DNA of 64,000 bases from an uncultured Pelagibacteraceae bacterium (lineage in GTDB: Bacteria > Pseudomonadota > Alphaproteobacteria > Pelagibacterales > Pelagibacteraceae). Numbering within the stretch: the first letter of the stretch is position 1; every line of letters begins with the position of its first letter. Where the stretch lies: positions 56,954-120,953 of the forward strand of contig CACGDZ010000003.1 of assembly GCA_902571955.1 (NCBI GenBank). The letters run 5' to 3'. The notes beneath the pieces were generated by a model. It was not told where the DNA came from and ran no database searches. It saw nothing but the letters and a program-made list of their open reading frames with translations. The position numbers were made by a program, and so were the translations under genes. Shown piece after piece: positions 32,157-42,095 of the stretch.

Positions 32157-32422
32157 TTGTCAAAACAAGACTTATTAGAATTTAAAGGGACAGTAATTGA
32201 TTTACTGCCGAATGCTATGTTTAGAGTTAAATTAGAAAATGGGCATACAGTTACTGCTCATACAGCAGGAAAGCTGAGAAAAAACAGAATTCGAGTTTTA
32301 CAAGGGGGCTAACCCCCAACTCTATGAGTTGGGGGTTAGTCACTCTTTAAATTGGTGATAATGTTACAGTAGAAATGACTCCCTATGATCTTACTAAAGG
32401 AAGAATTATCTTTAGGGGATAA
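32157..32422 (+). CDS. infA: Translation initiation factor IF-1, reading frame interrupted by a 50-nt insert
   Basis: TTG start after AAGGAG (32142-32147); [51 protein letters not shown] then TAA (32310-32312); conserved C-terminus [22 protein letters not shown] resumes in another frame at 32354-32422. Confidence 0.9.
32304..32353 (+). other. 50-nt insert within infA carrying a perfect 14-bp stem-loop (candidate translational bypass/recoding element)
   Basis: Arms ctaacccccaactc (32309-32322) and gagttgggggttag (32326-32339), loop tat; upstream GGGGG can pair instead with CCCCC around CTAA. Confidence 0.75.
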
Positions 32423-36363: not shown

Positions 36364-37539
36364 TCAATCAGAAGTCTTCTCTTTACCAGTAAAGTAAAGT
36401 TCTTTAGTATTAGCTTTAATCATCCAGTCATGATGATAAGGGATTGGTTTATTTTTTTTATTTAGAGCTTTTTTTACTTCTCTCATAATAATTTTGGCAC
36501 CATCCACGGGTACAGCCATCCCAATCTGTCTTCTTACAGACTCTTTTCCACCTTTGAAATTATATTTGTCAGGAAAAGTTTGAAGTCTTGCTCTTTCTCT
36601 ATTTGTTAATGCTCTGTGTTCTTTATAATGATAAACATGAGTTCCACCTCCACCACTGCCCGTTACAGTATAAGCAGGTTTAGAACTATCTAATCTTTTA
36701 TAAATGTGACTCATTCTCGCCTTTTTAACACCAGGAAGACCGTCTTTATCGTCCCCCAAGTCCCAGACGTTTTTACCTTCTTGTGTCTTTTTTAATCTTC
36801 TTATTACTCTTTCATCATGTTTTGTCAGTTCTTGATGTTGAGCCCATTCTGGAATAGGGGGATTTTCTAAAGCATCTTTACAGGTTCTCAACTCGTTATT
36901 ACTTTTCTCAGGTCTCTTAAAGCTTATATTATTTTCTGTAAAAAAATTATTTCTAAAACCAACTAATATAATTCTATGCCTTGTTTGTGGAATACCATAT
37001 TCCTCAAATTTATAATTATCAGCATATATTGTATATCCATGTTTAGAACACTTTGCTAGATCACCCATTATTTTTTTAAAGTTTTTATAATTATCATTTT
37101 GCAGTTGTTCCTTATCAAATATTTCATCAACCTTTTCTTTTTTTGAAGAATTAAATTTTAATTTTTTTCCAAGCGCAGTGACATTTTCAGCTACAAAGTA
37201 TTCTGGTTGAAAAAAATCTAATACATTACATGCATATTTGTAAAGACCTCCATATTCACCCTTCATTTTCTTATTCTTTCCTACAAGACTGAAGTCATTG
37301 CAGGGAAATCCAAATAGAAGTCCGTTTATATTACCATGTTCTTTTTTAATTTTTTTTAAATTATCTTCTTTTGCAAAATTTTTAATATCTTCAAAATAAG
37401 CCTCACAATTTTGGTTGTTCTTGAATGATTTACATGAATCTTCATGGTTATCTACACCCCAAACATGCTTGAAACCTGCTTTTCTTGCACCTTCAGCAAA
37501 CCCCCCTGCACCACAAAATAATTCAGCAATTTTAAGCAT
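36364..37539 (-). CDS. DNA (cytosine-5) methyltransferase
   Basis: Start at MLKIAELFCGAGGFAEGARKAGF; GFPCNDFSLVG catalytic PC; AENV; PQTRHRIILVG; LTNRERARLQTFPDKYNF. Confidence 0.95.
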   Translation of the reverse strand: MLKIAELFCGAGGFAEGARKAGFKHVWGVDNHEDSCKSFKNNQNCEAYFEDIKNFAKEDNLKKIKKEHGNINGLLFGFPCNDFSLVGKNKKMKGEYGGLYKYACNVLDFFQPEYFVAENVTALGKKLKFNSSKKEKVDEIFDKEQLQNDNYKNFKKIMGDLAKCSKHGYTIYADNYKFEEYGIPQTRHRIILVGFRNNFFTENNISFKRPEKSNNELRTCKDALENPPIPEWAQHQELTKHDERVIRRLKKTQEGKNVWDLGDDKDGLPGVKKARMSHIYKRLDSSKPAYTVTGSGGGGTHVYHYKEHRALTNRERARLQTFPDKYNFKGGKESVRRQIGMAVPVDGAKIIMREVKKALNKKNKPIPYHHDWMIKANTKELYFTGKEKTSD

Positions 37540-37594
37540 AATCTTAATTTTTTTTGTATTTATTATATAGAATACATATAACAAATAAATACTA

Positions 37595-37623
37595 TTGACA
37601 AGTATATTTATTTTAAGTATAAA
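37595..37623 (+). promoter_or_regulatory. Sigma70-type promoter of the defence operon
   Basis: TTGACA (37595-37600), 17-nt spacer, TATAAA (37618-37623); ATG of the small ORF at 37634. Confidence 0.65.
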
Positions 37624-37633
37624 AATTGATATT

Positions 37634-37939
37634 ATGGAAAAGAAAAATATCGTTGAATTTAGAGGTGCTAGGCAAAAAACAAAAAACTGGTCTCCTGAAA
37701 AAAAATTTAGAGAATTTTCATCAATTAGAGTTCCAAAACTATTAAGAGCTCTAAAAAATGTTCAAAATTTATCTACCGTTTATAATCCTAAAACAAAAAT
37801 TGGATATACCTATACAGAGGCAGAGAAAAGAAAAATCTTAAAGGATGTAAAAGAAGCTTATCAATCAATGCTTAAAGCATGGGATAATGCAGGAAAAAAA
37901 ATTAGAGAAAACCAAAAGAAATCATATTGGGATGAATAA
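37634..37939 (+). CDS. Small protein of unknown function, first gene of the island operon
   Basis: ATG 37634 MEKKNIVEFRGARQKTKNWSPEKKFREFSSIRVPKLLRAL...; start chosen downstream of promoter. Confidence 0.65.
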   Translation: MEKKNIVEFRGARQKTKNWSPEKKFREFSSIRVPKLLRALKNVQNLSTVYNPKTKIGYTYTEAEKRKILKDVKEAYQSMLKAWDNAGKKIRENQKKSYWDE

Positions 37940-37960
37940 AATTTTAAATATTAAAGAATT

Positions 37961-38160
37961 GATGCACGTTGTAAAGAGGAGGTTGTCATACACGGTATGC
38001 AACTCTATCGTTAGAACTTATAGCAAACCTCTCGCCAGAGTGCATCCTGGTTTTGTCTTATGCTTAAGTTCAAAAGTTGCAATTAGCAAGTTAACTGTGC
38101 AAATTTTAATGCGTGCGAAGCTACACCTTTTTTTCTTTCTGTGTAGCTTCTACGCATTAA
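37961..38160 (+). ncRNA. Candidate structured non-coding element inside the island operon
   Basis: Nested inverted repeats GATGCAC/GTGCATC, AGAGG/CCTCT, GTTGtCATAC/GTATGCAAC and a long hairpin TTAATGCGT..AAGCTACAC / GTGTAGCTT..ACGCATTAA; visibly less AT-rich than its surroundings. Confidence 0.45.
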
Positions 38161-38176
38161 AAAAAGATTTTTAAAT

Positions 38177-40102
38177 ATGGTTAATAGTTCAAAACCACAT
38201 TGGGTCAAAACAGAATGGGGAAGTGGTCTATATTTTGCTCCATCTTTAGAAGGTTTTAATACAGAAGAAAAGCAATTAAATACAAATATTGCTAATGAGG
38301 ATGGTCAAAACAGAGGAGATGAACAATTAAATAAAAACAAGCCTGTAATAGTTAAAATTTCTGAAAAAATAATTAATGATGCCAGTTTTTATTCTAAATA
38401 TCTTTTTGGGATGCAAGAAATTTTAAAAATTAATCCAAAAAATAAAATTTATCCTATAAATGATAAAAAAATTAGAGTTATCATAATTGAATGTTTCAAC
38501 ACAAATGGGTTAACAGGCTCATTCATTGAAACTGATAATCAAAATTATGAAAGATTTTTTATGGGTTCAGAGTTATCAAAAACAGGTGGTAAATTAGGAA
38601 GAAGACAGTTGGGTCGCCACGTATACATGTTAGCTTCTAAACTTAGAGGTTTTTTAGCGCTGTCAATCGACAAAGAGAATAAAAAGGAATTTCTAAGAGG
38701 TATACAATTTTTGGATAAATATAGTTATCAAGGAAAAAAAATGAATCCATATGGATTTTATGGATATTCAAAAGAAAATAAAGAGAAACAAAACCAACAA
38801 GAAAGTTTACCAATTTTAGATAAGGATATTATTGAAGACTTTAAAAATTTAACTGGAATAAAAAGGAATAAAGATGATACGGGACTTTCAATATTAATTC
38901 CAGAGCCACATGACGATATAACAGCGGAAAGAATTTTCAAAAAATATTTAAATAGATTTTTTCCAAGTATTTTGATTGGTACGATGAAAATTGACTATAA
39001 AGGGAAAATTATCTCAGCTGAAAATATTAAAGAAATTTTAATTAAAGAAAGAATGTTATCTGAAAAATGGTTATCATTTTTTGATGAAGTTTATACAATG
39101 CCAGATGACAAGAAGCATTTCATCTCCGATGTTGAAAAATATAATTTTGAAACAGTATTAAATTTAGATGAAATAGGTGATAGTCAATTAGAAAAAATTA
39201 AACACGATTACTTTGATAAAAAACCAATTGTATTTAAGTTTAAGGTTAAATTACCTTTTTTAAAATCATATTTAAACAAAACAGGAATAAAATTTGGTTG
39301 GTTTAATGTTGCACTTCAAAAAACAGAGAGTTCAGATAAGCCCATAAGGCCTATATTTTTGAGAGGCAATTTACAAATTCCAAATGAAGCAAGATATTTT
39401 AAATTTCAAAAAAGTGCATATGCTGCTTTGTGGGTTGATGGACAGGAAGAAAATAATTTAATTGAGGTGTTGGGCGACTCTGAGGGTATGGCTCACGATA
39501 GCTGGAATATGAACCATCCTGAAATTGAGAATTCATATGATCCAGATATCAAAAAAGTCTTTCAGTATATAAAATCTAGTCTTACAACAATTTTTAATTT
39601 TGTAACCGATAAGAAGGATCAACTTGATCTTGAAACATTCTCAGATGATTTACCTACATTCGAGGATATTCAAGAAAAAGAAAAAATAATTCAGAAAGAG
39701 GTAATATTTGAAAATCCTGAATTGCCACCAGTTAATCCTCCTCCACCACCTTCGCCAAGTCAAAGAAAAATGGTTAAAGAAATTAAAATTGATGGAGGTT
39801 TTAAAGTAATTAAAACAGATGAATGTGAGGAAAGTAATTTTCCAATGAAAGTCAGAGTAAGATTCGCTTATAGGGCTAGAAACAAAAACTCTTTTAAATG
39901 TTATAATCCAGAACTACATTTTAATTTAACTAAAGATGAAGGTGTATCAATATCTGAAAAGAAAAAAATTACAGATATTGAAACTATAGGAAATGGGGTT
40001 GATTTTTTAGCCACTGAACCTGATTTTGAAATTAGCATTACAGGTTTTTCTGAACTAGGTAAAAAAGATTTAGACGTTAGAGCAAGGAAACTTAAGGGAT
40101 AA
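38177..40102 (+). CDS. GHKL-type ATPase, resembling the MutL/MORC-like ATPases associated with R-M loci
   Basis: N-box-like NEDGQNRGDEQ; KIRVIIIECFNTNGLTGSF; GGKLGRRQLGRHVYMLASKLRGFLALS; adjacent C5-MTase and Vsr-like genes. Confidence 0.7.
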   Translation: MVNSSKPHWVKTEWGSGLYFAPSLEGFNTEEKQLNTNIANEDGQNRGDEQLNKNKPVIVKISEKIINDASFYSKYLFGMQEILKINPKNKIYPINDKKIRVIIIECFNTNGLTGSFIETDNQNYERFFMGSELSKTGGKLGRRQLGRHVYMLASKLRGFLALSIDKENKKEFLRGIQFLDKYSYQGKKMNPYGFYGYSKENKEKQNQQESLPILDKDIIEDFKNLTGIKRNKDDTGLSILIPEPHDDITAERIFKKYLNRFFPSILIGTMKIDYKGKIISAENIKEILIKERMLSEKWLSFFDEVYTMPDDKKHFISDVEKYNFETVLNLDEIGDSQLEKIKHDYFDKKPIVFKFKVKLPFLKSYLNKTGIKFGWFNVALQKTESSDKPIRPIFLRGNLQIPNEARYFKFQKSAYAALWVDGQEENNLIEVLGDSEGMAHDSWNMNHPEIENSYDPDIKKVFQYIKSSLTTIFNFVTDKKDQLDLETFSDDLPTFEDIQEKEKIIQKEVIFENPELPPVNPPPPPSPSQRKMVKEIKIDGGFKVIKTDECEESNFPMKVRVRFAYRARNKNSFKCYNPELHFNLTKDEGVSISEKKKITDIETIGNGVDFLATEPDFEISITGFSELGKKDLDVRARKLKG

Positions 40103-40104
40103 AA

Positions 40105-41022
40105 ATGCCATTTTTAAATTATACAAATAGAATAAATATAATTTGTAATGATGAACAAAATAGTGACATTAGAGTTTATGCCTCATCTCAAAATAATCAT
40201 TATTATGTTTTTCAAGAAAATCTTGAAAGAGTTAAAAAAGAGGTAAAAAAAAATTTTCCTGAGATTAAATTTTCAGAAATTAAAATATTTGTAGAAGCTT
40301 ATAGAGATGCTTATAGAAAAGAAGTTCAATGGGGTGATTTAGAAAATCCATTAACTGACAAAATTGATTTTTTTAAAAAGAAAGTTTTGATTGCTGAAAA
40401 TATGAATAGAACTCTAGATGAAATAGATTCATCAACAGCAAGATTCAGAATTATCATGGTTAGTGGAGAAAAAAATATTGCTACTTCTGAGGGTTTCCGA
40501 CCGTTTGTTGTAAAAACTAAAGAAGAAATTCAGAAACAACAAGTTCCAGTAAAATCATCACTGATCGGTACTTATGAAAAAGAAATGGAGGAATTATTTT
40601 ATTGCGACTTTCATAATGAGGAACCTAATATGGGGCAGCCAGTTATATATTTAAATAAAAAGTTAGGAATCAAGTCTGATATGAATTCAGATTTAAGAAT
40701 AAGAACTCTGATTTTTTCAAAATGTTTTAAGGAGCTTTTGAAAAAATCAATAATATTGCCAGATAATGAGTATAAAAAAAAATTATTAAAATACGCACAA
40801 ACTCATAATGATCAAAAAAATTGGGAAGACATTAGTGAGCTTTATCAAAATTCAAATGTCAGTGCTAATGAATTTTATGAAAATTTAGAACTAGATGAAT
40901 TTATCGATAACGCAACCCAAGGTTATATTTCAGAAAAAGATTTTTTAGAGAAATATTTAGAGGACAAAAATAGATCAGATATTGAAAATAATTTTACAGG
41001 AGAAGAACAAGATGAAGCTTAA
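40105..41022 (+). CDS. Uncharacterised partner protein of the GHKL ATPase locus
   Basis: 305-aa ORF 3 nt downstream of the ATPase; its stop overlaps the ATG of the next gene. Confidence 0.65.
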   Translation: MPFLNYTNRINIICNDEQNSDIRVYASSQNNHYYVFQENLERVKKEVKKNFPEIKFSEIKIFVEAYRDAYRKEVQWGDLENPLTDKIDFFKKKVLIAENMNRTLDEIDSSTARFRIIMVSGEKNIATSEGFRPFVVKTKEEIQKQQVPVKSSLIGTYEKEMEELFYCDFHNEEPNMGQPVIYLNKKLGIKSDMNSDLRIRTLIFSKCFKELLKKSIILPDNEYKKKLLKYAQTHNDQKNWEDISELYQNSNVSANEFYENLELDEFIDNATQGYISEKDFLEKYLEDKNRSDIENNFTGEEQDEA

Positions 41023-41728
41023 AATAAGAAGCTTTAATGATGAAGGTAATTTAAAGTTTAAGAAATTTGTAATTTAAAAAAAAAAAGAGTTTAAATCGAA
41101 AAAAACAAAAACTTTCAAAGTTCCTTTTCACTTAATTAAAGATAAAAAATTAACAACTGAGGTTAAAGACTCAATGGAAATTGATTTAGATAAAAAATTT
41201 AACAATGCATATGAGTATGCAAGTTATCTAAATGAAAAAATATCAAATATTGATTTAAAAAAATATAGATGGGATAGAGGTTTATTTAATTGGGTAAGTG
41301 CAGCATATTTTCCATCTTTTTTTCCAGGGATAAGATCAGGAACTGATGAAAAAAATAGATTTTTGTCAGAAGAAAAAGGGAAGTGGAGAAGACAATTGGC
41401 AAGAACTTTGTGGGAAATTTATTATGTTTATAAAGAAGATAGTTTGTGTCTTTTATATAAACCCACAAATAATTATTCTGATGAGCTAGAAACAATAAGT
41501 AAATCTCCAATTATGTTTAGTTCAAAAGGAGTTGTACAGGCTTACTCTGCTTTATATTTTAAAAAAAAATCAAGCACATCAGGAGAGCAAGCATACAAAA
41601 GAGGTGAAGTTGGAGATTTTAGAGATTTTATAGAGGAGCTTTACCAAATAGAATTAAATCTTGATATTTACAGAATGTCTAAAGATCAAATATTAAATAA
41701 ATTAAATGAGAAATTTTCAAAAAAATAA
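41012..41728 (+). pseudogene. DUF6339-like protein gene interrupted by an in-frame TAA (41075-41077)
   Basis: ATG 41012 overlaps upstream stop; MKLKIRSFNDEGNLKFKKFVI*KKKEFKSKKTKTFKVPFHLIKDKKLTTEVKDSMEIDL... all in one frame; ORF reopens after an 11-A run. Confidence 0.55.
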
Positions 41729-42095
41729 TAATAAATCAAAAAATACCAAACCTGAAAAAGCCATTAGATCTTTACTTTATAAAAATGGTTATCGGTTTAG
41801 AATTCACAAAAAGGAACTACCTGGTAAACCTGATATTGTAATAAATAAACATAAAACGATTATAAACGTTCATGGTTGTTATTGGCACTATCATGGCTGT
41901 GCTCATAGCAATGTACCAAAAACAAAAACTCAATATTGGATAGAAAGATTAGAGCTTAATAAGAAAAGAGATTTTATTAACAAAAGTAAACTGATTAAAT
42001 TAGGCTGGAAAGTAATTGATGTATGGGAGTGCACTTTAAAAAGAAAGAATATAAATAAAACTTTTAACACTCTGGAACGTCTAATCATTGCCTAA
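41706..42095 (+). CDS. Very-short-patch-repair (Vsr)-like endonuclease
   Basis: TKPEKAIRSLLYKNGYRFRIHKKELPGKPDIVINKHKTIINVHGCYWHYHGCAHSNVPKT...W; overlaps upstream gene end. Confidence 0.9.
   Translation: MRNFQKNNNKSKNTKPEKAIRSLLYKNGYRFRIHKKELPGKPDIVINKHKTIINVHGCYWHYHGCAHSNVPKTKTQYWIERLELNKKRDFINKSKLIKLGWKVIDVWECTLKRKNINKTFNTLERLIIA

Follow-up and report, generated by a model that had tools for sequence, protein, structure and literature searches.

Short hairpin inserts in infA and other conserved genes of SAR11 bacteria: candidate translational bypass elements

Background

To our knowledge, firm cases of translational bypassing, the jumping of a ribosome over part of a message, have so far been limited to one phage gene and some yeast mitochondria. 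In the phage case, T4 gene 60, the gap of 50 nt (AF158101, 2803-2852) breaks the reading frame, a stem-loop starts at the A-site codon after take-off, a stop directly follows the take-off codon, take-off and landing codons are both GGN, and a nascent peptide of the KKYK type is needed. Processivity of the T4 bypass is constant for gaps of up to 56 nt (PMC11194080). The mitochondria of Magnusiomyces capitatus carry 81 short inserts (byps) in many genes, some of which hold several; these are compensated in expression, and their take-off and landing sites are not always perfectly matched (PMC5009743). Group I and group II introns likewise interrupt genes precisely, at conserved sites, with an in-frame stop near the 5' junction. 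Rickettsia palindromic elements are palindromic repeats within the genes of AT-rich alphaproteobacteria, where they lie in frame and are translated.

Results and discussion

The interrupted infA gene

The window, that is the whole 64,000-nucleotide stretch of DNA analysed, comes from a SAR11-type genome (G000) that is 88% complete, with 1.15 Mb spread over 31 contigs. The window carries in a row hisD, infA, the gene for tRNA-Phe and a cold-shock-like gene. infA starts at TTG 32157 and in frame 0 meets TAA at 32310-32312; past a gap, the conserved C-terminus of IF-1 continues in another frame. Alignment with intact relatives (L008, L023, L018, L020) places exactly 50 surplus nucleotides between CAA and GGT, the same length as in T4 gene 60; sequence, coordinates and frames proved to be as the earlier note had read them. 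The parts of the gene, all on the forward strand, are as follows.

32157-32306, forward strand: first part of infA, IF-1 residues 1-50 ending in RIRVLQG; open reading frame with 98% tblastn identity to IF-1
32304-32306, forward strand: putative take-off codon GGG, the last codon decoded before the gap under the uniform rule for 23 tabulated elements
32307-32356, forward strand: skipped 50 nt, missing in intact relatives (up to the GGG/GGT ambiguity), the removal of which restores IF-1
32307-32341, forward strand: take-off stem-loop with 16-bp stem GGCTAACCCCCAACTC/GAGTTGGGGGTTAGTC and loop TAT; folding z-score -5.8, covariation in the family, covariance-model match of 48.1 bits
32310-32312, forward strand: in-frame stop TAA at codon +2, read from the sequence
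32342-32353, forward strand: G-free tail ACTCTTTAAATT from stem to landing triplet, with its last 8 nt counted as unpaired; 2 G in 155 nt of unique family tails
32354-32356, forward strand: putative landing triplet GGT, re-paired and not decoded; GG is kept at every Gly site despite differing tails
32357-32422, forward strand: second part of infA with stop TAA, 100% tblastn identity

None of 200 shuffled sequences folded as stably as the hairpin, which stands where it had been proposed, at the take-off and stop site, with a stem of 16 bp in place of the perfect 14 bp first described. As had also been argued, simple frameshifting is unable to restore IF-1, and the stops and frames rule out readthrough as well. 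The earlier note had placed take-off at GGC, with one extra glycine in the product; this had to be given up, as the codon at +1 is not conserved across the inserts and varies freely (GGC, GAC, CGC, CGG, TAC, CGA, TGA, TAG, TTT). Since take-off is assigned to GGG 32304-32306, which stands just before GGC TAA, and the skipped 50 nt to 32307-32356, no additional glycine is needed. A second copy of infA, which the note had proposed to look for, was not found in G000 (a genome 88% complete). The same insert, identical in sequence, occurs in a second genome, G273, and the exons of the two genes are separated by 7 synonymous changes and no nonsynonymous ones.

A family of inserts in five genes

Covariance-model and split-gene searches gave 26 inserts in 21 SAR11 genomes, spread over 12 sites of five genes, a count that may miss other hairpin types, the models being derived from these same genes. 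Beyond the five inserts of the first covariance model (R1), further elements came from a second model (R2), from a search with trxA and from scanning fetched neighbourhoods for split genes. The sites are distributed as follows.

infA: 2 sites
trxA: 7 sites, one of them in G536, a genome of another genus
HDAC-like gene: site RPPG^HH
sbcB: site SNIG^FDDE
exonuclease-like gene: site LG^AYT

The last gene is presumably an exonuclease; Pfam gave no family for its homologue in the window. When 201 genomes of the same genus were searched with the joined IF-1, the gene was mostly intact, and 95 loci around intact infA contained no elements. Three genomes (G053, G105 and G158) have infA split at the other site, KLR^KNRI, and G158 is interrupted at both infA sites; two inserts within one gene also occur in trxA of G069 and of G395. 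No infA match was seen in 42 of the 201 genomes, mostly incomplete ones, and scored candidates among these (e.g. G056 and G065) might hide heavily interrupted copies. Whole-genome model searches gave no convincing case elsewhere, in a survey where most genomes were incomplete, and a model search of 149 well-completed genomes of the order gave no elements beyond four, of the same genus, already known or newly found. None of the element-bearing genomes was recognised as a cultured isolate. Weak model matches included ordinary terminators, which were recognised and set aside. The literature searched made no mention of elements of this kind in SAR11. The infA insert belongs to a family of short coding-gap elements in SAR11 that appear to be mobile.

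Common anatomy

A single rule describes all the elements: the take-off codon is decoded, the gap including the landing triplet is skipped and decoding resumes, so that removal of 28-53 nt restores the conserved protein in every case. The alternative of starting the second exon with the landing triplet was rejected, as it would replace the catalytic Cys or a conserved Trp or create TGA. The hairpin is conserved and lies in the sense strand, and in 26 of 26 elements its stem starts between -3 and +1 nt relative to the codon after take-off. Both-sided changes affect 10 of 15 stem pairs, and 98% of cells are paired against 74% in shuffles, in an alignment chosen with this structure in mind, on which shifted structures pair far worse. 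The conserved insert site and arm covariation that the earlier note had suggested looking for in related genomes are thus present, the same sites recurring in independent genomes. Of the 26 elements, 19 have an in-frame stop at +1 or +2, and just 4 of these have it directly at +1; the remaining 7 have none at either position, and in some the stop has been lost with the stem still paired (e.g. CTTG/CAAG in G287). Element lengths take any residue modulo 3 and stops usually lie inside. In the sbcB element of G079 (C1:55264-55300, L199) the skipped 51 nt are a multiple of three with an in-frame stop inside; the homologue in G219 skips 49 nt.

The tails between stem and landing triplet are strikingly poor in G, with the 2 G in 155 nt of unique tails standing against 22 expected. 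Middle G is found in 11 of 12 take-off codons, compared with 12.9% of codons (P 2e-9), a bias that might partly reflect a preference for GG at insertion, and in 24 of 26 landing triplets. At 9 of 12 sites take-off and landing begin with the same two nucleotides (P 0.0005 by permutation); at Gly sites the match could also stem from target preference or from duplication at insertion. Poor matches are seen at Cys sites (TGT to AGA, AGT, TTT, AGC), at the Ala site (GCC to ACT) and, among the 5 elements at infA site A (infA-A), in 3 (CGG to TGA or AGA), and the matched codon pair put forward in the earlier note therefore does not extend to a general rule.

Bypassing as the best-supported reading

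Translational bypassing is the best-supported reading of these inserts and, judged from their sequences, probably the right one. Peptidyl-tRNA would detach from the take-off codon, the ribosome would slide over 28-53 nt by way of the G-poor tail, and the tRNA would re-pair at the landing triplet, usually the first with a middle G and in most cases identical to the take-off codon at its first two bases. Decoding would restart at the codon after the landing triplet, yielding full-length IF-1 with no added residue. A middle-G rule, in which an anticodon with central C passes a G-free tail and stops at the first G, would describe most elements, although it is drawn from these same data. Bypassing is favoured by the lock of the hairpin to the codon frame, the stem-loop at the A site, the gap length, the GG kept in Gly-site landing triplets and the T4-like loop of the trxA-W class; it is weakened by the poor matches of the Cys, Ala and some Arg elements, by the absence of nearby stops from part of the family and by the lack of an evident common nascent peptide.

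Part of the likeness to T4 gene 60 that had been proposed for infA is borne out across the family. All 26 gaps break a conserved protein that is restored on joining, and the longest of them, 53 nt, lies within the length that T4 tolerates, its processivity staying constant up to 56 nt (PMC11194080). The stem-loop begins at the A-site codon in every element, Gly sites go from GGN to GGN, a stop adjoins take-off in many elements, triplets mostly match, and the trxA-W class (TGG|TAGCCC-TTAG-GGGCTA) is a near copy of T4 gene 60 (GGA|TAGCC-TTCG-GGCTA) in its TAGCC/GGCTA stem. Not borne out are the GGC take-off and, as a rule for the family, strict codon pairing. The SAR11 family also differs from the phage gene in spanning several conserved chromosomal genes of many genomes, in its longer and variable stems, and in a stop that is not always present and seldom directly follows take-off. 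Upstream peptides differ between hosts, with no common nascent peptide evident before the gaps and KKYK absent upstream of those in IF-1 or TrxA.

In layout, the byps of Magnusiomyces resemble the SAR11 inserts in being short and numerous, in many genes (five in SAR11), some with several, and presumably also in being compensated in expression (PMC5009743). The SAR11 elements, however, lie in a bacterial chromosome, presumably read by standard-type ribosomes, and form a GC-rich, strongly conserved hairpin family clustered in one neighbourhood. With Rickettsia palindromic elements they have in common palindromic repeats within genes of AT-rich alphaproteobacteria; they differ in lengths of any residue modulo 3, usually with stops.

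Alternative explanations

The inserts could instead be very small introns, the hairpin RNA being excised and the exons joined by a ribozyme or protein of a new kind, with the in-frame stops barring ribosomes as in phage group I introns. This we consider unlikely, though it accommodates several observations: precise removal restores every protein, no tRNA re-pairing is required and poorly matched landing triplets are thus unproblematic, and elements without stops are tolerated. It leaves unaccounted for, however, the codon-frame lock, the middle-G take-off codons and the GG kept in triplets that are not decoded, and the junction sequence is not consistent. At 28-53 nt the inserts are shorter than known self-splicing introns permit and differ from group I and group II introns in having no catalytic core; no Rfam intron match was obtained over the infA locus. 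Splicing with ligation by RtcB was rejected, the ligase being found in none of 25 SAR11 genomes (18 of them with elements, many incomplete), with 9 of 14 controls positive. That there exists a new class of miniature introns of 28-53 nt in bacterial protein genes, for which a hairpin and G-poor tail are enough for precise excision and joining, seems slightly less probable still.

It is improbable that each gene yields two separate polypeptides, or that the interrupted copies are decaying while a working copy goes unseen. Split proteins do occur elsewhere, and the window genome is only 88% complete. Nevertheless, both exons are under purifying selection: dN/dS of the joined exons is mostly below 0.13, reaching about 0.25 where one of the pair is the divergent trxA of G287, with some pairs saturated at synonymous sites. 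Homologous inserts moreover occupy the same sites in several genomes, the resumption points on inspection have no start codon with ribosome-binding site, and breaks fall inside the CGPC active site of thioredoxin. An assembly or amplification artefact is extremely improbable, for although many SAR11 genomes were assembled from amplified single cells, a procedure known to give inverted chimeras, such an origin of the whole family is refuted by the recurrence of homologous inserts at the same sites in independent genomes and by the covarying stems, and G000 and G273 have a common insert but differing exons.

Genomic neighbourhood and possible movement

In genomes with fetched surroundings all elements lie in one neighbourhood, which in the window spans from the HDAC-like gene (20.5 kb) to trxA (46.2 kb), a puzzling confinement for a mobile-looking family. 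No two of the element-bearing genes found are more than about 26 kb apart, and they flank a variable island on either side (window 20503-46246; L209-L226). The island sits between hisG and the sbcB-trxA genes and its contents differ from genome to genome. In the window it covers 36364-42095, between hisG and rmuC/sbcB/trxA, and is restriction/defence-like, with a C5 DNA methylase (PF00145), a Vsr endonuclease (PF03852) and three large proteins to which Pfam assigned no family. The island is not required, since G158 and G095 bear elements and have no island there. No homing endonuclease was recognised beside the elements when island proteins were inspected by eye and those of the window island with Pfam, a search that was not exhaustive. 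Many genomes with elements also encode, in the island region, an RmuC-like protein of about 330-400 aa (L217-L220 and others).

At the KLR^KNRI site (site A), the inserts of G053 and G158 (L132/L133) are identical at 46 of 47 nt, though infA differs at over half of synonymous sites. This suggests transfer of elements into the same site, by recombination or homing, with strong constraint as the other possible cause. A viral source was considered and rejected, as pattern scans of viral contigs gave no matches, chance-level matches without model support, or intergenic terminator-like hairpins, and phage DNA gave no more than weak matches to the infA insert. The 18-nt hairpin core of trxA-W, TGGTAGCCCTTAGGGGCT, occurs in 12 viral contigs (L460-L471), above chance, upstream of genes and terminator-like, not within a split gene.

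Conclusions

As each insert interrupts a conserved gene, the cell must skip it, most likely by a ribosome jump. If excision were the true explanation, bacteria would possess a minimal intron of unknown type. If bypassing is, it would be the property of a mobile-looking element family and not a lone phage oddity, the dozens of natural variants would reveal its requirements, and gene finders would mislabel essential genes as broken or missing. SAR11 bacteria, whose cells are some of the most numerous in the ocean, would then express essential genes by way of ribosome jumping.
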